From contig JAOADG010000008.1 of assembly GCA_026417415.1 (NCBI GenBank), forward strand, positions 643,612 through 707,611: a DNA stretch of 64,000 nt, read 5' to 3'. The position numbers and the translations under genes are program-made. Shown piece by piece: positions 1,096 to 24,082 of the stretch. The notes beneath the pieces were generated by a model. The model had not been told where the DNA came from and did no database searches. It saw nothing but the letters and a program-made list of their open reading frames with translations. How positions within the stretch are numbered: the stretch's first letter is position 1; each line of letters begins with the position of its first letter. The stretch is from a bacterium. GTDB taxonomy: Bacteria; Electryoneota; JAOADG01.

Positions 1096-2597
1096 AGAAT
1101 TTGATATTATTATTGTTATTCGGAACTTTCTTTACAATTTCTCATGCGTTAGAAACTTCCAATGTGTCAGTGACGTTATCCGATAGAATGATATGGTCTG
1201 ATGGTACTGAAAAGTTAATGACATCTGGTCAAAGTAAGAAAATTTCTTACTTTGAAAACTATTTAGATGGTCGCTTTTCTTTTGGACAAAAAATTACCAC
1301 AGGTATTCGCTTTTCTACTTTACAACCGTCTTATTGGGGTGAACGAACACAAGGATTAAGTGCCATTGATAAACGATGGTTACGGTACAGTAAAGATAAG
1401 TTCAATATTACTATAGGAAACACTTACACAGTTTGGGGTCGCGGCTTAGTTTTAGCGTTAATTGAAGATTTTGAACAAGGATTAGATTCTGGTGTTGATG
1501 GTGTCTTAATCAATTATAACTTAGAAAATCTTCAAATTGAAGCGATACGAGGGAGGTCTGAACTTGATCCTGCAGGTTATACCAAACCGAATGATATACA
1601 AGGTGCAAGTATTCAATACAATGTGAAAAATACAAAAATATCCACTTCCTTTTTACAAACCTTACCAGAAAATTATCCAGATATAAGAACTAGTGGTGTC
1701 AGCTTTCAAACTCAGCAATATCTTCAAAACGTAGGTACATTGTCATTTTTTTGGGAAGGTAGTTGGCAAGCAGAAGCCAATACTAACAACGTCAATCGTG
1801 GATGGTTTTCAACGATTAGTTTCGCAAGAAAAGGTTTCTCTTTACAAGTTGATTACAAAGATTATCAATTCCGATTAGTTCACGGGAATTTACTTCCCTA
1901 TCAATCACCTCCAGTTGTTTTAAAAGAACTTATTTCAAAAACAATGTCTTCTCACCCTCACAATCCAAAGTACGATGATGAAATTGGTTGGCAAACTGAA
2001 ATCCATTACAAACCATTAAAAACCATTGAAATCATCGGATATACTGGTCATAGTTCATCCCATCATGAATCTCCGATTCCATCATTAGAGCAAAAAGATT
2101 CTCCTTTTATAGAACATATGGCAGAAGTTCAATGGAAAATCACGAAAAAACAAAATATTCGTTTACAATATGCAACAAGACAAGAAACTTTGTGGAATTC
2201 CTATTTTCAAGTTCCTTCAATTTGGAATCAAAGAAAAGGTTTTTTAGTTGGAGTGCAAACAGGTTTAACCAAGCGGTTTAATGTTGAATTGATTTCTGAA
2301 CAGATGTTCACAAAAGATAAAATCAAAAAACAATCCATACGTGATGGTTATTATAATGCCACTATTTCGTTATCAGGAAAAGGCTCTATTGCTTTCCTAA
2401 TGGAAACTACCAATGATAAAAACGAAATGAGTGGTCCAAATTGGTTTGCATTGGAAGCGAACTATCAGGTACAACCGGGAGTGCAACTTCAGTTATTTAC
2501 TGGTAAACAAAGAGGCGGTATTGTTTGTAGTAGTGGTAGATGTAGACCAGTCAATCCTTTTCAAGGGGTTCGTGTAAGTGTCGAAATCAACTTCTAA
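1092..2597 (+). CDS. Predicted outer-membrane beta-barrel protein (DUF6029-like)
   Basis: The protein has 501 residues with a clear signal peptide (MKNLILLLLFGTFFTISHA). The rest is a long run of alternating amphipathic strands rich in Tyr, Trp, Gln and Asn. Features include IGNTYTVWGRGLVLALIEDF near residue 120 and a final strand ending in Phe (VRVSVEINF), as expected of a barrel inserted by BamA. The early part resembles DUF6029 proteins of Bacteroidota, but the family assignment is from memory of the pattern and not certain. Two Cys near the C-terminus (CSSGRC) may form a disulfide, which would fit the TlpA-like gene immediately upstream. It overlaps selA by 20 nt. Function unknown. Confidence 0.7.
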   Translation: MKNLILLLLFGTFFTISHALETSNVSVTLSDRMIWSDGTEKLMTSGQSKKISYFENYLDGRFSFGQKITTGIRFSTLQPSYWGERTQGLSAIDKRWLRYSKDKFNITIGNTYTVWGRGLVLALIEDFEQGLDSGVDGVLINYNLENLQIEAIRGRSELDPAGYTKPNDIQGASIQYNVKNTKISTSFLQTLPENYPDIRTSGVSFQTQQYLQNVGTLSFFWEGSWQAEANTNNVNRGWFSTISFARKGFSLQVDYKDYQFRLVHGNLLPYQSPPVVLKELISKTMSSHPHNPKYDDEIGWQTEIHYKPLKTIEIIGYTGHSSSHHESPIPSLEQKDSPFIEHMAEVQWKITKKQNIRLQYATRQETLWNSYFQVPSIWNQRKGFLVGVQTGLTKRFNVELISEQMFTKDKIKKQSIRDGYYNATISLSGKGSIAFLMETTNDKNEMSGPNWFALEANYQVQPGVQLQLFTGKQRGGIVCSSGRCRPVNPFQGVRVSVEINF

Positions 2598-3945
2598 TCA
2601 ATATCCTGTAGCAGTTGGTAAACTAATAGAACATCCCTCCATTCAAAAGCTTTCTGTTAAATACGATATCCTATTAAAATTGTGTCGAGAAGAAATAGAA
2701 CGACAAAGACGAGAGGGTGTACCCAATCATTCGCTTGAAGTCGCTGTGAAAAACGTTACTCATCAAGTTGAAATTTTATTACAGCCCTCTTTTCCAAAGG
2801 TTCTAAATGGAACGGGAATACTTTTACACACTGGTTTAGGACGTGCAGTGTTACCCAAAGAAGCACTAATATCATTAGAAAATGCATCACAAAACTGCTT
2901 ATTAGAAATAGATCCTGTTCGCGGTGTACGTGGAGATCGTTGGAAGTCAATTGAGAAAAAGTTAACCTACTTATTAGATGTTGAAGCAGCGTTAGTTACA
3001 AATAATTGTGCTTCTGCAGTTTTATTAGTGTTAAGTACATTAGCCAACAAAAAAGAAGTGATTATTAGTAGAAGTGAATTGGTTGAAATTGGTGGAAGTT
3101 TTAGAATGCCAGATGTTATATCAGCAGCTGGAGTTAAAAGAATTGAAGTTGGGACTACGAATAGGGTGCGACTTGATGATTACGAAAAAGCAATTCATTC
3201 TAAGACGGCTGCTATTTTAAAAGTGCATCCATCCAACTACCGAATTGTAGGATTTACAGAATCTCCAACTTTGCAAGAACTTAAACAACTTGCATTACAT
3301 TACAATATATTCCTAATTGAGGATTTAGGAAATGGTTTATTATTAAATTTAGAAGATTACTTTTTACCGTATGAGACAACAGTTCAAGAAAGTGTGAAAG
3401 TTGGAGTAGATGTGATCACTTTTTCAGGTGACAAATGTTTCGGTGGTCCACAAGCAGGAATCATTGTTGGAAAATCTGAATTGATCCATAAATGCAAAAA
3501 ACATCCAGTACTACGCGCTGTACGTCCTTGTAAATTAACGTTGTCTGCTTTGGATGCAACATTGAATTTGTGGTTGCAAAATCAAACGAATTCCATTCCA
3601 TTTGTAAAGCAGATTTCAGCATCTATTGATGATCTTCGAAAACGAGCAACCTTTATTACCGCTTCCCTAAAGTATAGAACTATTCCGATCACTATAGAAC
3701 AATGTGATGGGTTTATTGGTTCTGGTGCAGTACCACAACAGGCAATTTCAGATATAGCAATCGTTATACATCCGAAAAAAAAACATGTAAGCCGTATCGC
3801 ACAAATGTTACGGTTACAAAGCCCAGCCCTATTTTCAGAAATACACAATGAAAAAATATTTATACATTTACGAACTGTTGATCCAAGTGATGATCCTGTT
3901 TTACAGTCCATATTAGATAACACATTAAAGAGTATTTCACAATGA
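2578..3945 (+). CDS. selA: L-seryl-tRNA(Sec) selenium transferase SelA
   Basis: The protein has 455 residues, close to the usual ~460. SelA is a PLP enzyme that converts Ser-tRNA(Sec) to Sec-tRNA(Sec) with selenophosphate. The family signature is plain: GILLHTGLGRAVLP near residue 80, SRSELVEIGGSFRMPD, VGTTNR, HPSNYRIVGFTE, and the PLP-lysine loop FSGDKCFGGPQAGI with Lys286. The start is GTG at 2578, with AAGGGG about 9 nt upstream, inside the end of the barrel gene. It overlaps nfeD by 4 nt. No selB, selC or selD is present in the window, so use of selenocysteine must be confirmed elsewhere in the genome. I saw no adjacent frame pair split by an in-frame TGA that would mark a local selenoprotein. 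Confidence 0.93.
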   Translation: MSKSTSNQYPVAVGKLIEHPSIQKLSVKYDILLKLCREEIERQRREGVPNHSLEVAVKNVTHQVEILLQPSFPKVLNGTGILLHTGLGRAVLPKEALISLENASQNCLLEIDPVRGVRGDRWKSIEKKLTYLLDVEAALVTNNCASAVLLVLSTLANKKEVIISRSELVEIGGSFRMPDVISAAGVKRIEVGTTNRVRLDDYEKAIHSKTAAILKVHPSNYRIVGFTESPTLQELKQLALHYNIFLIEDLGNGLLLNLEDYFLPYETTVQESVKVGVDVITFSGDKCFGGPQAGIIVGKSELIHKCKKHPVLRAVRPCKLTLSALDATLNLWLQNQTNSIPFVKQISASIDDLRKRATFITASLKYRTIPITIEQCDGFIGSGAVPQQAISDIAIVIHPKKKHVSRIAQMLRLQSPALFSEIHNEKIFIHLRTVDPSDDPVLQSILDNTLKSISQ

Positions 3946-9887: not shown

Positions 9888-11225
9888 ATGTCTAATAAAA
9901 GGAATGTGCTCATTATGGGCGCAGCGGGTAGAGATTTTCATAACTTTAATGTATTCTTCAGAAATAATCCTAATTATCAAGTTGTGGCATTTACCGCCAC
10001 ACAAATTCCAAATATTGATAACAGAAGATATCCTTCGGAACTTACAGGGAATGCATACCCAGAAGGTATTCCAATCTATTCTGAAACGGAATTGACTGAT
10101 TTAATTAAAAAATTTCACATTCATGATGTTGTATTTTCATATTCAGATGTTTCCCATGAATACGTTATGCATAAAGCATCTACTGTATTGGCTGCAGGTG
10201 CTAATTTCGTACTGCTTGGTGCAAATGAGACCATGTTGAAATCATCCAAACCAGTTGTTGCTATAGGCGCTGTTCGTACTGGTGCAGGCAAATCGCAAAC
10301 CACAAGAGCGGTGGTTAAAACGCTACGTAAAAAAGGGTTAAAAGTGGTTTCTGTGCGACATCCTATGCCATATGGGGATTTAGTAAAACAAAAAGTACAA
10401 CGCTTTGCCAGTGTAGAAGATTTGTCAAAATACAATTGCACAATTGAAGAAATGGAAGAGTATGAACCACACATTACAATTGGAAGTGTGATTTACGCAG
10501 GTGTAGATTATGAAGCGATTTTAAAAGAAGCAGAAAAAGAGGCAGATGTTATAGTTTGGGATGGTGGAAATAATGATATTCCATTTTACAAACCTGAACT
10601 TATGATTTGTATCACTGACCCTCACCGCCCCGGTCATGAAACGACTTACCATCCGGGTGAAACCAATTTACGACTTGCGGATGTTGTAATTTTAAATAAA
10701 ATTGATACTGCTAATGGTGAAGATATCAGATTAGTACGCTCTACAGTTTCACAAGTGAATCCTAATGCAATTCTAATTGAAGCAGCATCACCCATATCCG
10801 TTGAAAATCATCAACTCATTAAAGGGAAAAGAGCATTAGTTATTGAGGATGGTCCTACACTCACTCATGGTGAAATGACTTACGGTGCTGGGATTGTAGC
10901 AGCACAAAAATTTGGTGCAAGTGAAATCATTGATCCACGACCTTACTTATGTGGAACGTTGGTAGAAACTTTTGAAACTTATCCTGAAATTGGTACGTTG
11001 CTTCCTGCTATGGGGTATGGTGGCAAACAAATTCAAGATTTAGAAAAAACGATTGCAAACACTCCTTGCGAAGTTGTAATCATTGCTACACCGATAGATT
11101 TAAGACGAATTATTCAAATTAAACAACCGACAGTTCGGGTAACTTATGAACTACAGGAAATTGGGAAACCCACTCTTGAAGATGCTTTGACACCAATTAT
11201 CCAGAAAATTAAGGAACACCAATGA
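9888..11225 (+). CDS. Cyclic 2,3-diphosphoglycerate synthetase-like GTPase
   Basis: The protein has 445 residues. It starts with a strong ribosome site (GGAGG 8 nt upstream). The N-terminus is a Rossmann-like region (VLIMGAAGRDFHNFNVFFR). It is followed by a P-loop GAVRTGAGKS (about 127-136) and an NKID motif near residue 270 that suggests a G-protein-like nucleotide site. DPHRPGHETTYHPGETN in between is characteristic of this family. Homologues are annotated as cyclic 2,3-diphosphoglycerate synthetase, named for the methanogen enzyme, or simply as GTPase. The bacterial members have no proven product that I know of. The stop overlaps the carbamate kinase start by 4 nt, so the pair is probably functionally linked. 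Confidence 0.8.
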   Translation: MSNKRNVLIMGAAGRDFHNFNVFFRNNPNYQVVAFTATQIPNIDNRRYPSELTGNAYPEGIPIYSETELTDLIKKFHIHDVVFSYSDVSHEYVMHKASTVLAAGANFVLLGANETMLKSSKPVVAIGAVRTGAGKSQTTRAVVKTLRKKGLKVVSVRHPMPYGDLVKQKVQRFASVEDLSKYNCTIEEMEEYEPHITIGSVIYAGVDYEAILKEAEKEADVIVWDGGNNDIPFYKPELMICITDPHRPGHETTYHPGETNLRLADVVILNKIDTANGEDIRLVRSTVSQVNPNAILIEAASPISVENHQLIKGKRALVIEDGPTLTHGEMTYGAGIVAAQKFGASEIIDPRPYLCGTLVETFETYPEIGTLLPAMGYGGKQIQDLEKTIANTPCEVVIIATPIDLRRIIQIKQPTVRVTYELQEIGKPTLEDALTPIIQKIKEHQ

Positions 11226-12175
11226 GTGAATTTCAAGGTAGAAAAGCGGTGATAGCAATCGGTGGAAATGCCATTTCTCCTCCTCATGAAGAGGACACTA
11301 TTGCTAATCAATTCCGGAACAGTAGATTGTCCTTAAAGGGTGTAGTGGATTTGATTGAGCAGGGATGGAGGATTGCTTTAACTCACGGAAACGGTCCACA
11401 GGTAGGAAATGCTTTATTGCGAGTGGAAAAAGCGTTGGGTGAAGCCCCTGAATTACCTTTGGGTGTTATCGTTGCTGATACTCAAGGTGGTTTAGGATAT
11501 ATGTTTGAACAAACCTTACAAAATGGATTATTGCTCAGAGGAATAGAAAGAAGTGTAGTGACTTTAGTTACACAAGTGTTGGTAGATAAAAATGATCCGA
11601 ATTTATTAGACCCATCTAAATATGTTGGACAATACTATACGAAAGAAGAAGCAGAAATTCGTGCGAGACAATACAATTGGGTGATAAAACCTGCTGATCG
11701 TGGAAAATGGAGAAGAGTAGTTGGTTCTCCTATCCCTTTAGAGATAATTAATAAAAAAGTTATCAAAAAACTAGTAGATGAAGGCATTATCGTGATTACC
11801 GTGGGTGGAGGTGGTATCCCAGTATATCGTGAAACCAATGGTTGTTTAGAAGGAGTAGATGCTGTAATTGATAAAGATCGCGCTTCTGCAGTTTTAGCAA
11901 GAGATATTGGTGCACAGGACTTTTTTATTTTAACAGGTGTAGATTACGTTTACTTAGATTATGAAAAACCGACTCAAAGAAAAATTGAGAAAATCACCTT
12001 CAAAGAATTAGATCAATTATGGAGTTCAGGAATTTTTCCGAAAGGTTCAATGGGACCGAAAGTGGGTGCTGCATTGGATTTTTTAGAATGGGGAGGCGAA
12101 CGAGTAATTATCACTTCACACCATTCTTTAACGGATGCAATTCAAGGGAAAATAGGTACTTTAATAACTCATTGA
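11222..12175 (+). CDS. arcC: Carbamate kinase
   Basis: The protein has 317 residues, the family's usual length. Carbamate kinase interconverts carbamoyl phosphate + ADP with ATP + carbamate. Signatures are VIAIGGNAISPP at the start, ALTHGNGPQVGN, the central ITVGGGGIPV, GVDAVIDKDRASAVLA, and the C-terminal GSMGPKVGAALDFL. No arginine deiminase (arcA) or ornithine carbamoyltransferase (arcB) is nearby. The only partner is the overlapping GTPase upstream. It may make ATP from carbamoyl phosphate, or supply carbamoyl phosphate to pyrB 7 kb downstream; the sequence does not decide. Confidence 0.94.
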   Translation: MSEFQGRKAVIAIGGNAISPPHEEDTIANQFRNSRLSLKGVVDLIEQGWRIALTHGNGPQVGNALLRVEKALGEAPELPLGVIVADTQGGLGYMFEQTLQNGLLLRGIERSVVTLVTQVLVDKNDPNLLDPSKYVGQYYTKEEAEIRARQYNWVIKPADRGKWRRVVGSPIPLEIINKKVIKKLVDEGIIVITVGGGGIPVYRETNGCLEGVDAVIDKDRASAVLARDIGAQDFFILTGVDYVYLDYEKPTQRKIEKITFKELDQLWSSGIFPKGSMGPKVGAALDFLEWGGERVIITSHHSLTDAIQGKIGTLITH

Positions 12176-17168: not shown

Positions 17169-17585
17169 ATGGAAAGAACCCTATGTATAATCAAACCAGA
17201 TGCGGTAAAAGAGAATCATATTGGAGATATTATCCATATTATTGAACGTGAAGGTTTTTTGATCGGTGCTATGGAAATGTTGCAATTAACAAAGCAACAA
17301 GCTGAAAATTTTTATGCTATTCATAAAGAAAGACCATTTTTTCAATCATTAGTACAATATATGACTTCTGGACCAGTAGTGGTTCTGGCATTGTTTCGTG
17401 AAAATGCTGTTACTCATTGGCGAAATGTCATAGGTTCTACAAATCCCATGGAAGCAGATTATGGGACTATTCGTCGTATGTTCGGAAAGTCAATAGAAGC
17501 CAATGCTGTTCATGGCAGTGATTCTATAGAAAACGGTGAAAAAGAGACAGATTTTTTCTTTAAAGGAACTTACCTGTTACGGTAG
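17169..17585 (+). CDS. ndk: Nucleoside diphosphate kinase
   Basis: The protein has 138 residues. It transfers the gamma phosphate from ATP to NDPs through a phosphohistidine. The start ([18 protein letters not shown]) and active site (ANAVHGSDS with His115) are textbook, as is the Kpn-loop region. The ATG directly follows the korC stop. Co-transcription with sucCD suggests exchange of GTP or ATP produced by succinyl-CoA synthetase, which is an inference from context. Confidence 0.97.
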
Positions 17586-17602
17586 TTTCTAAGGAGCGAT
17601 CA

Positions 17603-18547
17603 GTGAATGAAACGTTAAAAGAGATTTTAGGTACAATTCCAGAAACGCCAAATGATGAAATCACCCCAGCAACACTTGGAAGGATTGGAATTATTGGCGG
17701 TGGACAAATGGGACGCGGGATTGCTTGGACTGTCGCGGCAAAAGGGATTGATGTCATTTTAGTGGAACAAGATGAAGAGAGTTTAAAGCATTCTTTAGAT
17801 ATATTAGAAGAAGAATTAAATTATGAAATTTCACGTTGGGGTTTAACCAATTCTGATAAACGTGCGATTTTATCAAGAATTAAAGGAACAACAAGTTATG
17901 ATGTTTTACAAAATGAGATAATCATAATTGAGGCAATTACTGAGTCAATTGATGCAAAAAAGAATTTGTTTAGAAAGTTGGATTCTTTCTTAGGAAAAAA
18001 TTGTATTTTAGTATCCAATACCTCTACACTTTCTCTTACTGAAATCGCTTCTGTTACCCAGCGTGCTGAAAAATGTATTGGAATGCATTTTCTAAACCCT
18101 GTTCCAAAAGTTCAAGTAGTAGAGATTGTTCGTGGTTTAAAAACGAGTCAAGCAACTTTTGAATTTGTTAAAAAATTTGCAGAACGAATAGGTAAACAAG
18201 TCGTAGAGGTTTATGAATCGCCCGGTTATGTGACCACACGGGTTATTTTGCCTATGTTAAATGAAGCAATGTATGTTTTAATGGAAGGTGTGGCGGATGA
18301 AGAAGGAATTGATAATGCTTTGAGGTTAGGGTATGGATTAAACATTGGTCCATTACAATTGGCTGATACGATTGGTTTAGATGAAGTTCTTTTATGGATG
18401 GAGCAACTATTTAAAGATTATGGTGATTTAAAATATCGGCCTTGTCCATTATTAAAAAAGCTCGTACGTGCTGGGAATTTAGGTAAAAAGACCGGTCGTG
18501 GCTTTTTCTGTTATGATGAACAAGGTAAACCAATTACATCATCATAA
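17603..18547 (+). CDS. 3-hydroxyacyl-CoA (3-hydroxybutyryl-CoA) dehydrogenase
   Basis: The protein has 314 residues from GTG 17603 (AAGGAG 7 nt before). About 26 extra N-terminal residues precede the NAD site [14 protein letters not shown]. The catalytic His162 and Glu174 lie in [19 protein letters not shown], with Ser137 and Asn139 in LVSNTSTLS. The C-terminal domain has [14 protein letters not shown]. It oxidises or forms 3-oxoacyl-CoA, in beta-oxidation or butanoyl/PHB metabolism. No thiolase or crotonase is nearby, so the pathway is open. The usual PGFVVNR motif is here PGYVTTR. Confidence 0.9.
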
Positions 18548-18560
18548 ATGGATTGAAAGT

Positions 18561-18660
18561 TTTTCGTCCTCTTTAAGTACTTCAGTGAAAGTAGTAAGAG
18601 GCGGATAGCAATGTTTGAATAGAAACAACGCACCCGCCAAGGTGCGTGTTTTTTATAGGA
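18561..18660 (+). promoter_or_regulatory. PyrR-binding attenuator leader of the pyrRBC operon
   Basis: Three competing structures are visible. (1) A PyrR-binding hairpin at 18568-18601: lower stem CCTCTT/AAGAGG (6 bp), an internal bulge, upper stem TACTT/AAGTA, and the six-base loop CAGTGA (18583-18588). The loop fits the known PyrR consensus CNGNGA. (2) A candidate antiterminator pairing GGCGG (18600-18604) with CCGCC (18634-18638), which extends weakly to 18609/18630. It overlaps both other hairpins. (3) An intrinsic terminator at 18628-18654. The established model is that UMP-bound PyrR stabilises the first hairpin, which lets the terminator form. The promoter is presumably within or before the preceding gene, since only 20 nt separate that stop from the hairpin. 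Confidence 0.75.
18628..18654 (+). terminator. Rho-independent terminator of the pyr leader
   Basis: The stem ACGCACC/GGTGCGT (7 bp, 18628-18634 with 18641-18647) has a six-base loop and is followed by GTTTTTT. It lies just before the pyrR ribosome site (AGGAG at 18657-18661). It would therefore stop transcription before pyrR, as in known attenuators. Confidence 0.85.
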
Positions 18661-18670
18661 GTTTGTTTTT

Positions 18671-19231
18671 ATGGACATTAGAATGAATCAATATGTCCTT
18701 TTGGATGCGGATGCTTTTCAAAGAACCATTCGTAGGCTTGCACACGAGTTAATTGAAAAAAACGCATCTGCAGGTAACTATGTTTTAATAGGTATTCAAA
18801 CTCGTGGTGTTCCTTTAGCGGAAAGATTGTCCAAATACTTGTCTGAAATTGATGGCAAAACTGTACCTGTAGGTTCAATTGATATCACTTTGTATAGAGA
18901 CGATTACCGAACTTTACTTAAAAGTGAGCTTCCTCGGGCAAACGAACTTCCCTTTTCAGTAGATGGGAAAAACATTGTTTTAGTTGATGATGTACTTTAT
19001 ACGGGTAGAACAGTACGGGCTGCTATTGATGAAATAATGAGTTTTGGAAGGCCTCAACGAATCCAGTTATTGGTCTTAATTGATCGCGGACACAGGCAAT
19101 TACCAATACGAGCTGATTATGTTGGAAAAAATGTTCCAACTTCAATTCAGGATGAAATAAAAGTTAGAATGAAAGAAGTGGATGGTGTTGATGAAGTGTT
19201 ATTAGTTAAAAATGAGGTGGGAAATGAGTAA
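18671..19231 (+). CDS. pyrR: PyrR bifunctional pyrimidine regulator / uracil phosphoribosyltransferase
   Basis: The protein has 186 residues. It binds the leader RNA of its own operon when UMP or UTP is high and has uracil phosphoribosyltransferase activity. The PRPP loop is IVLVDDVLYTGRTVRAAID near residue 104. The N-terminal YVLIGIQTRGVPLAERL and the C-terminal RGHRQLPIRADYVGKNVPTS are characteristic of PyrR rather than plain phosphoribosyltransferases. The gene lies directly behind a PyrR-type attenuator and before pyrB and pyrC. Its stop overlaps the pyrB start by 8 nt. Confidence 0.96.
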   Translation: MDIRMNQYVLLDADAFQRTIRRLAHELIEKNASAGNYVLIGIQTRGVPLAERLSKYLSEIDGKTVPVGSIDITLYRDDYRTLLKSELPRANELPFSVDGKNIVLVDDVLYTGRTVRAAIDEIMSFGRPQRIQLLVLIDRGHRQLPIRADYVGKNVPTSIQDEIKVRMKEVDGVDEVLLVKNEVGNE

Positions 19232-20180
19232 TCCTACACCCTTACCCAATGTTTTTCCATCTTCTCGACATTTATTAGGAATTAAATACATAACTGCTGA
19301 TGATATCTATTTATATTTAGATACAGCTAGAACATTTCGTGAAGTTTTAGAAAGACCTGTAAGAAATTTACCTACATTACGCGGTGTTCAAGTTGTTAAT
19401 TTATTTTTTGAAAATAGCACTAGAACACGATTAAGTTTTGAATTAGCAGAGAAACGATTAGGTGCAGATGTTTTGAATTTTCAATCTAGTGGTAGCAGCG
19501 TCGCAAAAGGCGAAACTTTATTAGATACTATCAGAAATATTGAAGCAATGAAAGTTGACGCTGTGGTTATGAGACATTCTGCGGCTGGTGCGCCCCTATT
19601 TTTATCGGAACGTATTAAAAGTATCGTAATTAATGCTGGTGATGGTGCACATGAACATCCAACACAAGCATTGTTGGATTTATACACTATTCGAGAAAAA
19701 TTTAAAGTATTAAAAGGATTAAAAGTTACTTTAGTTGGAGATATATCCCATAGTCGTGTGGCTATGTCTAATCTAATAGCATTACAAAAAGTGGGTGCTG
19801 TACCAGCAGTTTGTGGTCCATCAACAATGATCCCGAAAGATCTTGAGAAACTTGGATACACAGTTTATCATCATGTAGATGAAGCAATACAAAATAGTGA
19901 TGTGTTGAATGTTTTAAGAATTCAACATGAACGAGCTGCTTCGGGTACTATTCCCTCTATTCGAGAGTACCGGAAGTATTTTGGTATAAATCGAAAAAGA
20001 TTGGAAAAAGCCACTAAACCGTTGCTAATTATGCACCCAGGTCCAATTAACCGTGGAGTAGAATTAGACAGTGACGTAGCAGATGGAGAACATAGTGTCA
20101 TTTTAGATCAGGTAACCAATGGTGTTGCAATACGTATGGCAATCCTATATTTATTGTGTAGAGGAGTCCAAAGTGCTTAA
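19224..20180 (+). CDS. pyrB: Aspartate carbamoyltransferase, catalytic subunit
   Basis: The protein has 318 residues from ATG 19224. The ATG at 19212 is in frame, but GAGGTGGGA lies just before 19224. It condenses carbamoyl phosphate with aspartate. Signatures are NLFFENSTRTRLSFE (carbamoyl-phosphate loop), GDGAHEHPTQALLDLYTI, LVGDISHSRVAMSN, and the C-terminal LLIMHPGPINRGVEL. No pyrI regulatory subunit follows, as expected of the PyrR-controlled type. It overlaps pyrR and pyrC. Confidence 0.97.
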   Translation: MSNPTPLPNVFPSSRHLLGIKYITADDIYLYLDTARTFREVLERPVRNLPTLRGVQVVNLFFENSTRTRLSFELAEKRLGADVLNFQSSGSSVAKGETLLDTIRNIEAMKVDAVVMRHSAAGAPLFLSERIKSIVINAGDGAHEHPTQALLDLYTIREKFKVLKGLKVTLVGDISHSRVAMSNLIALQKVGAVPAVCGPSTMIPKDLEKLGYTVYHHVDEAIQNSDVLNVLRIQHERAASGTIPSIREYRKYFGINRKRLEKATKPLLIMHPGPINRGVELDSDVADGEHSVILDQVTNGVAIRMAILYLLCRGVQSA

Positions 20181-21501
20181 AAATGATTTACCGAATTGGG
20201 AAATATTTCGAAATAAAGATGTTCTTTTAAAAAACGTAAAGATAATTGATCCTTATCAATTTGAGAAGGAAATCAATGCGGATATACTCATTCAAAATGG
20301 AAAGTATGAAAAAATTGCATCACCAAATACACTCTCCTTTAATCCAGCGATGAAGGTTGTCGAGAATATTAGCATTTCTCCAGGTTGGTTTGATTTACAT
20401 GTACATCTGAGAGAACCAGGTTTTGAACATAAAGAAACTATAGAAACTGGTTTAAATGCTGCTATGGCGGGTGGATTTACTGGTGTAGCGTGTATGCCCA
20501 ATACTAACCCAGCTTTGGATAATGCTGCTGTAATTCAATCGTTGTTAGAAAAAGCATCGGGACATCCAGTTTTTCTATCTATAGTCGCTGCAGCTACAAA
20601 AAATCGAGCGGGTAAAGAATTAACAGAACTGGCAGAATTGGCTGAGTTAGGTATTCGTGCTGTCTCAGATGATGGTTCACCAGTAGTGGATAGTGGATTA
20701 GTAAGGAAGATAATGGAATATGGTTCAATGTTTGGTATAACATTTTTCAGTCATGCTGAAGACCCAAATCTATCTGGAAGAGGGGTAATGAATGAAGGAA
20801 TTTGGAGCACCACATTAGGATTGAATGGAATTCCGACAATCGCTGAAGATGTGATGGTATCTAGAGATATTTTAATTGCTGAATACACGAAATGTCCTGT
20901 GCATATCTGTCATGTAAGTTCTGCAAAAAGTGTAGAATTAATCCGAGAGGCAAAATCAAGGGGAATTCAAGTAACCTGCGAAGCAACGCCACATCATTTT
21001 TCGAAATCTTTAACCGATTCTTCGTTAGTGACTTTTTCAACCAATTTAAAAATGAATCCTCCTTTACGTTCTATGTTTGATGTAGAAGCCATTCAAAAAG
21101 GACTTCAAGATAGTACCATAGATTGCATTGCAACCGATCACGCACCACATTCAATTGAAGAAAAGGAAGTTGAGTTTGATTATGCAGCGTTTGGAATTAC
21201 GGGTTTAGAAACTTGTTTTGGTGTTGCATACTCCGAATTGGTTCATAAAGGAGTGTTAACTATTCAGCAATTAATAGAGAAGTTATCCATTAATCCACGA
21301 AAAATCATGAAATTGCCCCCAATTCCGATTAAAGAAGGAAACATAGCAAACATTACATTATTTGACGAAAAAAAAGTATGGCGATTTGAAAAAAATCAAA
21401 CTTTAAGTAAAAGTATCAATTCTCCATTTTATGGAAAAGAATTTATTGGTAAACCATTGGGAATTTTAAGAGAACATTTTTTTTGTTATTGTAATAATTG
21501 A
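20173..21501 (+). CDS. pyrC: Dihydroorotase
   Basis: The protein has 442 residues from GTG 20173, preceded by GAGGAG. The frame is open upstream only as a shadow of pyrB. It cyclises carbamoyl aspartate to dihydroorotate. Metal ligands are visible in [20 protein letters not shown] (HxH), HAED, HICHVSS, and [27 protein letters not shown] supplies the substrate loop. The end has several Cys and Asn (FFCYCNN), unusual but without clear meaning. The stop overlaps the region just before lepA. Confidence 0.96.
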
Positions 21502-21506
21502 CTTTA

Positions 21507-23306
21507 ATGGATCAGTCAAGAATTCGAAATTTTTGTATTATCGCACATATCGATCATGGTAAATCTACCTTGGCTGATCGTTTGCTTGAGTATACGCACA
21601 CAATTCCTGAACGTGAAATGTCCGAACAAGTTTTAGATAGTATGGATCTTGAAAAAGAGCGTGGAATTACAATCAAAGCCCATGCTATCTCTATGAAATA
21701 TCGATCTTTAGATGGAGTAGAATATCTATTAAATTTAATTGACACACCTGGCCATGTGGATTTTACTTATGAAGTATCAAGATCACTAGCAGCATGCGAA
21801 GGGGCAATCTTAGTTGTAGATGCATCACAAGGAATAGAAGCACAAACACTTTCCAATGTCTATATGGCTATTGATGCAAACTTAGAAATTATCCCTGTTG
21901 TGAATAAAATAGATCTTCCTTCTGCTGATATTCAAGGTGTAACGCAGCAAATTGTAGATCTTCTTGGTTGTGACACAAAAGATGTGATAGCGGTTTCTGG
22001 AAAGACAGGACAAAATGTAGAGATACTATTAGAAACTATCGTCAACAGAATCCCGCCACCTCAAGGAGATCCTTATGCACCTTTACAAGCGATTATCTTC
22101 GATTCAATGTATGATAATTATCGAGGTGCAATTGCCTATATACGTATTGTTAACGGTACATTGCGAAAAAGAGATTGGATATTATTTATGAAAACCGGAG
22201 CACAATACGAAACAGAAGAAATCGGAACTTTACGGTTAGGTCGATTTCCTTGTGATGAATTGACACCAGGAATGGTAGGATATCTAATTTCTGGCTCGAA
22301 AGAAGTAAAAGAGACGCGCGTAGGCGATACTGTTACTCATCGTTTTAATCCTTGTTCAAGTGCTTTACCGGGTTACCATGAACCAAAACCGATGGTTTTT
22401 GCAGGAGTATATCCAACCAATGCTGATGATTTTCAAGAATTGCGTGATTCTTTAGAAAAATTACGTCTAAATGATGCTTCTTTATTTGTAGAACCCGAAT
22501 CTTCGGGTATTCTTGGGTTTGGTTTCAGATGTGGCTTTTTAGGTTTGTTGCATATGGAAATTGTCATTGAACGCTTAGAAAGAGAGTATCATTTAGATTT
22601 AATTACAACTGTTCCATCAGTAGAATACAAAGTTTATCTGACCAATGGTGAGATGAAAATAGTGGATAACCCAGCTCATTGGCCTTCGCCTGCGCAAATT
22701 CAATATACTGAAGAACCATACGTTTCTGCTTCTACGATTACTCCGACTGAATACATTGGCGCAATTATGAAGTTGGCTATGGAGCGTCGTGGTATTTACA
22801 AAACTACTGAATATCTATCACCTGAACGTGCTCGGTTGTCTTTTGAATTTCCTTTATCAGAAATCGTTTTTGATTTTTATGACCGACTAAAATCCATTAC
22901 ACGTGGTTATGCAAGTTTTGATTATGAATACAAAGATTACCGTATGGCAAAATTAGTGAAATTAGACATTATCATCAATGGTGATGTTGTAGATGGCCTT
23001 TCTATGATTGTTTTTCAAGATAAAGCGTATGAATGGGGAAGAAGAACAGTGGATAAATTGAAAGAATTAATTCCACGTCAGTTGTTTGTGGTTGCTATTC
23101 AAGCAGCAATCGGTGGGAAAGTGATAGCACGTGCTACAATTTCTGCATTAAGGAAGGATGTATTAGCTAAATGCTATGGTGGGGATATCACAAGAAAACG
23201 TAAATTGCTTGAAAAACAAAAAGAAGGTAAAAAAAGAATGAAACAGATCGGTTCGGTTGAGATACCGAAAGAAGCATTTGTAGCAATATTGAAAGTAGAT
23301 ACATAA
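21507..23306 (+). CDS. lepA: Elongation factor 4 (LepA)
   Basis: The protein has 599 residues from ATG 21507 (a TTG at 21498 is also in frame and overlaps pyrC). It is a ribosome-associated translational GTPase. G1 is [16 protein letters not shown], switch II is [20 protein letters not shown], and G4 is [11 protein letters not shown]. The domain order (G, II, III, V, LepA C-terminal) follows the family, ending VRKDV-like then [12 protein letters not shown]. The gene ends 1 nt into lepB, a common pairing of lepA and lepB. Confidence 0.97.
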
Positions 23307-24082
23307 TGGAACTAAAATTAGAAAATAAAGAAGAATCTTTTAGGGAAAAGTTTGACCGTTGGCGTCTTAACAATTTTAAGAAAACGGCTAAGAAAACTAA
23401 GAAAAAAAAGTGGACAGAAACTATTGTTTCCATCGTATTAGTGGTTATTCTTATTCGTACTGCGGTTGCAGAAGCATTTCGGATACCTTCAGGTTCAATG
23501 GAAGATACCTTGCTTGTAGGTGATTTTTTATTGGTGAATAAATTTATTTATGGTACAAAAACACCAGATTGGATTGGGATTCCGATGACCCAGATTGGTT
23601 TTTCAATCCCGTATTTTAGATTGCCAAAAATTCGTGATCCAAAACAAGGAGATGTTTTAGTATTTAAATATCCTAAAAATACGAAGATAAATTATATCAA
23701 AAGATGTATTGCTACCGAAGGACAAACCGTTGTTATTAGAAATAAACGCGTGTTTGTAGATGGGAAAGAAATGCCATTACCAAAACATGCTAAATTGATA
23801 GGAACATTCATTCAACCTGAAGGGATGCAAAATCCATACATCGTTCCAGCAGGTGCTGGCAATCCTGATAATTACGGTCCGGTAAAAGTCCCAAAAGGGC
23901 ATTTGTTTGTAATGGGAGATAACCGAGACAATAGTGAAGACAGTCGTTTTTGGGGTTTTTTGCCTAAAGAGTTAGTGGTTGGAAAAGCTACTATCATTTA
24001 TATGTCTATAGATTTTAACACTCCCATCTATCGGTTTTGGGAATTTATACGTTGGAAACGCTTGCTTAATCTTATCCAATAA
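23306..24082 (+). CDS. lepB: Signal peptidase I
   Basis: The protein has 258 residues. It is an inner-membrane enzyme that removes signal peptides from Sec-exported proteins. A basic N-terminus (to 37, very Lys-rich) leads to one membrane span (about 38-58), then the catalytic serine in IPSGSMEDTLLVGD (Ser64) and catalytic lysine in NYIKRCIATEGQ (Lys132). Box E is GHLFVMGDNRDNSEDSRFWG. It overlaps lepA by 1 nt, and a strong terminator follows within 10 nt. Confidence 0.97.
   Translation: MELKLENKEESFREKFDRWRLNNFKKTAKKTKKKKWTETIVSIVLVVILIRTAVAEAFRIPSGSMEDTLLVGDFLLVNKFIYGTKTPDWIGIPMTQIGFSIPYFRLPKIRDPKQGDVLVFKYPKNTKINYIKRCIATEGQTVVIRNKRVFVDGKEMPLPKHAKLIGTFIQPEGMQNPYIVPAGAGNPDNYGPVKVPKGHLFVMGDNRDNSEDSRFWGFLPKELVVGKATIIYMSIDFNTPIYRFWEFIRWKRLLNLIQ

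Follow-up and report, generated by a model that had tools for sequence, protein, structure and literature searches.

Our analysis indicates that the leader preceding pyrR in the window (the whole 64,000-nucleotide stretch of DNA analysed) is highly likely to be a PyrR-controlled transcription attenuator of the pyrR-pyrB-pyrC run. The structures of such a switch, their mutual exclusion, covariation and conservation, and the regulator gene were all observed here. The attenuator reading had been put forward in a preliminary description. It is borne out by covariation, by an orthologous leader in the nearest relative (G001) that scores over the Rfam cut-off, by mutually exclusive structures and by the PyrR equivalog encoded next to the leader.

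The leader spans 123 nt, from the stop codon of a 3-hydroxybutyryl-CoA dehydrogenase-like gene to the pyrR ATG at 18671, and carries a hairpin, a spacer and an intrinsic terminator in that order. Every leader part claimed beforehand, from the hexaloop to the ribosome site, is present in the sequence, and the coordinates given for the leader are right. The features, with the evidence for each, are as follows.

18568-18601, + strand: PyrR-binding hairpin, putative anti-antiterminator (sequence, matches to covariance models R1 and R2, covariation)
18568-18573/18596-18601, + strand: lower stem CCTCTT/AAGAGG (sequence)
Between lower and upper stems, + strand: internal loop TAAG/GT, with UAA on the 5′ side (sequence)
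18578-18582/18589-18593, + strand: upper stem TACTT/AAGTA (sequence)
18583-18588, + strand: hexaloop CAGTGA (sequence)
18563-18566 with 18602-18605 (18563..18605), + strand: hairpin-base extension UUCG/CGGA (minimum free energy fold)
18600..18638, + strand: antiterminator, pairing GGCGG 18600-18604 with CCGCC 18634-18638, GC 18608-18609 with GC 18630-18631, and TGTTT 18612-18616 with AAACA 18623-18627 (fold, shuffle test, G-C to A-T double change in G001)
18628..18654, + strand: intrinsic terminator, stem ACGCACC/GGTGCGT with loop CGCCAA at 18628-18647 (fold and sequence)
18649-18654, + strand: U tract, GTTTTTT after the terminator stem
18657-18661, + strand: Shine-Dalgarno-like AGGAG of pyrR (sequence)
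18671..19231, + strand: pyrR, bifunctional pyr regulator/uracil phosphoribosyltransferase (NCBIfam NF003549, 243.9 bits, cut-off 138; matches to PyrR structures in the PDB)
19212..20180, start more likely at 19224, + strand: pyrB, aspartate carbamoyltransferase catalytic subunit (NF002032, 395.4 bits, cut-off 263)
20119..21501, start uncertain, + strand: pyrC, dihydroorotase (TIGR00857, 386.6 bits, cut-off 279)

The hairpin is supported by covariation and by two covariance models. The preliminary description had proposed a covariation test on both stems, and its outcome was positive: across 8 pairs, 27 cells were changed on both sides against 9.5 in shuffled alignments. For 23 sequences of the phylum and both helices together, none of 500 shuffles attained the covariation score of the real alignment, and every slid register scored much lower. 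The latter control matters because kinship alone can let unstructured sequences beat shuffles. Base changes on both sides of the hairpin helices were also seen in other phyla. Model R1, built from the phylum with the window sequence in its training set, gave the window site 36.9 bits as the sole match up to E 10 in its own 2.2 Mb genome (150 of about 260 candidates scored). Furthermore, R1 recovered five genomes outside the training set (G018, G019, G020, G021 and G023; E 2e-7 to 0.04). Model R2 was made exclusively from leaders of other phyla using alignment A3, which replaced a larger alignment of 48 sequences (A2) that was set aside because MAFFT had misregistered the lower stems. On both strands of the 64 kb, R2 placed the window hairpin first (19.1 bits, E 0.038; runner-up 14.9), and genome-wide it gave no match at E ≤ 1 in the window's own genome; the top rank in 64 kb is suggestive and falls short of genome-wide significance. 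At E ≤ 1, R2 matched 20 of 39 phylum genomes, each listed match being a site upstream of pyrR.

With RF00515 and the Bacillus pyr attenuators the window leader shares the UUUAA 5′ internal loop, the upper stem, the CNGNGA hexaloop, the lower stem, covariation in both stems, the overlapping antiterminator, the intrinsic terminator and the position before pyrR. In contrast to them, the window copy lies below Rfam detection: against a gathering cut-off of 54 bits, RF00515 (PyrR) gave no match in the window at gathering or at E ≤ 10, and none in its own genome. The orthologous G001 leader scores 54.3 bits and is the sole leader over 54 among the 39 phylum genomes. Thus, judged from its sequence, the window element is a divergent member of the PyrR family, placed by homology to the G001 leader and below its own Rfam cut-off. 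Since RF00515 exceeds the cut-off in just one of the 39 genomes, such elements are under-annotated. Other Rfam matches in the window, seen at relaxed thresholds, were chance sRNA or snoRNA matches, none of them PyrR.

In the predicted folds of the window, the antiterminator is mutually exclusive with both the hairpin and the terminator. During transcription, the 3′ strand of the hairpin would have two possible partners: the 5′ strand of the hairpin itself, or the terminator's loop together with its 5′ arm. UMP-bound PyrR would lock the hairpin by gripping its internal loop, its upper stem and the CAGTGA hexaloop; GGCGG would be sequestered, the terminator at 18628-18654 would fold and transcription would end. 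At low UMP, PyrR would be released, the antiterminator could form and the pyr genes would be transcribed. For the sensing of UMP, the contact by PyrR and the direction in which control would run, we have taken Bacillus as the model. In B. subtilis, PyrR-UMP stabilises the anti-antiterminator and the terminator then forms (PMC7430163), and the same PyrR-UMP attenuation mechanism operates in S. pneumoniae (PMC6296669). Unlike the RF00515/Bacillus arrangement, the antiterminator predicted in f1, the family of the window, opens the lower stem only; the upper hairpin remains folded in the antiterminators predicted for the window and for G001.

The upper stem of the window hairpin is short, with 5 pairs followed by a G-G mismatch, and in the predicted fold the UUCG/CGGA extension at its base masks the 5′ strand of the antiterminator. 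Because of this extension the hairpin state is favoured in the window, at -18.9 against -17.0 kcal/mol for the antiterminator, a difference of 1.9. The hairpin-state value is the free minimum, as a run with the antiterminator disallowed (-17.1) penalised two unrelated pairs. In 13 of 20 terminator-bearing phylum leaders, the window not being among them, the nascent RNA has its energy minimum in the antiterminator state. Therefore, the three-state leader envisaged earlier stands insofar as all three exclusive structures are predicted, but default readthrough is not clear with the hairpin favoured by about 2 kcal/mol. Given the lower energy of the hairpin state, a switch is plausible, biased to termination unless kinetics or factors help.

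Of the dinucleotide shuffles, 0.3% matched the duplex energy of the antiterminator, as did 0.2% of 14-mers drawn at random from the window; for its ungapped-helix score the shuffle frequency was 4%. Relative to G001, whose PyrR is 70% identical, pairing is preserved despite sequence differences in the upper stem, in the antiterminator and throughout the terminator; the antiterminator pair GGCGG/CCGCC of the window reads GAGGCGAT/ATCGCCTC in G001, a G-C to A-T double change. Terminators were found in 19 of 28 hairpin-bearing phylum leaders, where shuffling predicts 1.0. In the remaining nine no terminator was recognised, a count that would suit PyrR binding the hairpin to control pyrR translation rather than termination, as PyrR has been reported to do in mycobacteria. 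The location of the hairpin in the 5′ leader would agree with such control, as would leaders L035, L056 and L071, where the hexaloop stands 7-35 nt before the inferred start. For the window we consider this very unlikely, as the hairpin is followed, ahead of the ribosome site, by a strong terminator with a tract of six Us, and AGGAG lies outside the hairpin, with three of its bases weakly paired in the predicted fold.

A slightly smaller likelihood still attaches to the idea that the terminator just ends the upstream ndk/3-hydroxybutyryl-CoA dehydrogenase unit, that the hairpin is unrelated and that the pyrR promoter lies beyond. The upstream gene does stop 20 nt before the hairpin, and no promoter was recognised in between. 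However, the pyrR start comes 24 nt after the end of the terminator stem, so a promoter has no room there; the hairpin covaries, and hairpin and terminator stay with pyrR even where, in part of the phylum, the genes upstream differ. The attenuator may be intercistronic, resembling the internal ones of B. subtilis. The upstream genes (17169-18547) are ndk and the dehydrogenase-like gene (17603-18547). At 18509-18517, TGTTATGAT is similar to an extended -10 box.

Downstream of pyrR, pyrB and pyrC overlap. The window has one site before pyrR-pyrB-pyrC, whereas the ten-gene operon of B. subtilis has three (PMC7430163). After pyrC, genes for LepA (EF-4) and signal peptidase I, recognised by sequence, follow at 21498-24082 with overlapping ends, and the attenuator may reach these genes as well.

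The window PyrR is related to the solved Bacillus and Thermus PyrR structures. The basic, RNA-facing residues of B. subtilis PyrR, as listed from mutagenesis, are mostly kept: R15, R19, H22, H140, R141, R146 and K152 are present, and T18 and E142 are replaced by R and Q. The motif RGHR and the residues N153 and P155 are kept as well. The two substitutions could be read as decay, with PyrR acting merely as a uracil phosphoribosyltransferase and the leader terminating constitutively or weakly; the weak scores with outside models, the short upper stem and a hairpin more stable than the antiterminator point the same way. We regard decay as the least probable of the alternatives, as the hexaloop, UUUAA and AAGAGG are intact and pairing survives the base changes that set the window apart from G001 in the upper stem, the antiterminator and the terminator. 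Moreover, the window PyrR retains the GKNVPT loop, which is lost in the hairpin-less genomes of family f2.

Within the phylum, a strong pyrR match was present in 37 of the 39 genomes examined, and 28 of these 37 carry the hairpin upstream of pyrR. The hairpin was absent there in nine genomes, namely eight of family f2 (G003-G010) and G037. In all nine PyrRs position 146 is Q or A, not R/K, and N153 is lost; those of family f2 additionally lack P155. Altered RGHR...GKNxPT is seen across family f2 (e.g., L098, L107 and L110), with H22 lost in four genomes and H140 in two. N153 and P155 are kept in all 28 hairpin-bearing genomes. On the PyrR tree, the presence or absence of the hairpin needs two separate changes. 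Outside the phylum, no hairpin was found for L074, whose PyrR loop reads EARYVGRHVPT. This coincidence of a missing hairpin with a damaged loop in f2, G037 and L074 was less expected, and it also speaks for the attenuator reading. The converse fails: Cloacimonadota have no hairpin within 350 nt, yet their PyrR loop is intact. We lean slightly towards the view that PyrR attenuation arose early in the phylum and was lost at least two times, the RADYxGKNxPT loop decaying with the RNA site each time, a co-loss that rests on as few as two or three events. In the shared fold, the GKNxPT loop corresponds by homology to the loop with which hypoxanthine phosphoribosyltransferases bind the base, so its change may have affected the binding of bases and not that of RNA. 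If the co-loss is true, the loop would be a sequence marker by which a PyrR that regulates could be told from one retained for a different role, and the joint loss of RNA site and loop a simple predictor of where PyrR regulates.

The notability originally attached to such a leader outside Firmicutes does not hold up, as many phyla other than Firmicutes have this hairpin ahead of pyrR. We found it in loci of Acidobacteria, Chloroflexi, Zixibacteria, Methylomirabilota, Omnitrophota, Nitrospinota, Tectomicrobia, Ignavibacteria, Thermus, Paractinoplanes and Bacillota. A survey published in 2013 covered 255 genomes; it listed 211 PyrR sites and rated the distribution of the motif as moderate (PMC3766115). 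The Thermus leader (L030), also non-Firmicute, has the same hairpin before pyrR as the window and differs in primary sequence and in spacing to pyrR; RF00515 also matches Thermus composti. The actinobacterial leader L071 again has this hairpin, with loop CCGTGA, but there the inferred start of pyrR follows the hexaloop by 35 nt, and hence its output is probably different. The window leader very probably belongs, as a slightly atypical member, to an RNA-switch family that is common and spread over many phyla. In the open literature we found no published description of the PyrR hairpin in this phylum. Our study adds most of a phylum that has received little attention to the range of a textbook RNA switch, and covariation supports this extension; otherwise, the leader is ordinary gene control.

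Other genes bear on the supply of carbamoyl phosphate. The large subunit of carbamoyl-phosphate synthetase is absent from the window's own 100%-complete genome (G000), where the best TIGR01369 match has 64 bits against a cut-off of 1027; pyrB and pyrC are present there all the same. At E ≤ 1e-100 this subunit had no match in 24 of the 39 phylum genomes, some of which may be explained by fragmented assemblies. A carbamate kinase-like gene occurs in 38 of the 39 (11222-12175 in the window), and an enzyme of this type may provide carbamoyl phosphate for pyrimidines; an anabolic class of carbamate kinase-type enzyme has been named (PMC6022934). Directly before this gene, 9888-11225 encodes a 445-aa protein whose only Pfam matches, to nucleotide-binding families, are marginal; it has no NCBIfam match and was not found next to arcC in four genomes of family f6. 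Further upstream, selA lies at 2578-3945 (TIGR00474, 447.5 bits), from which selenocysteine use is likely.
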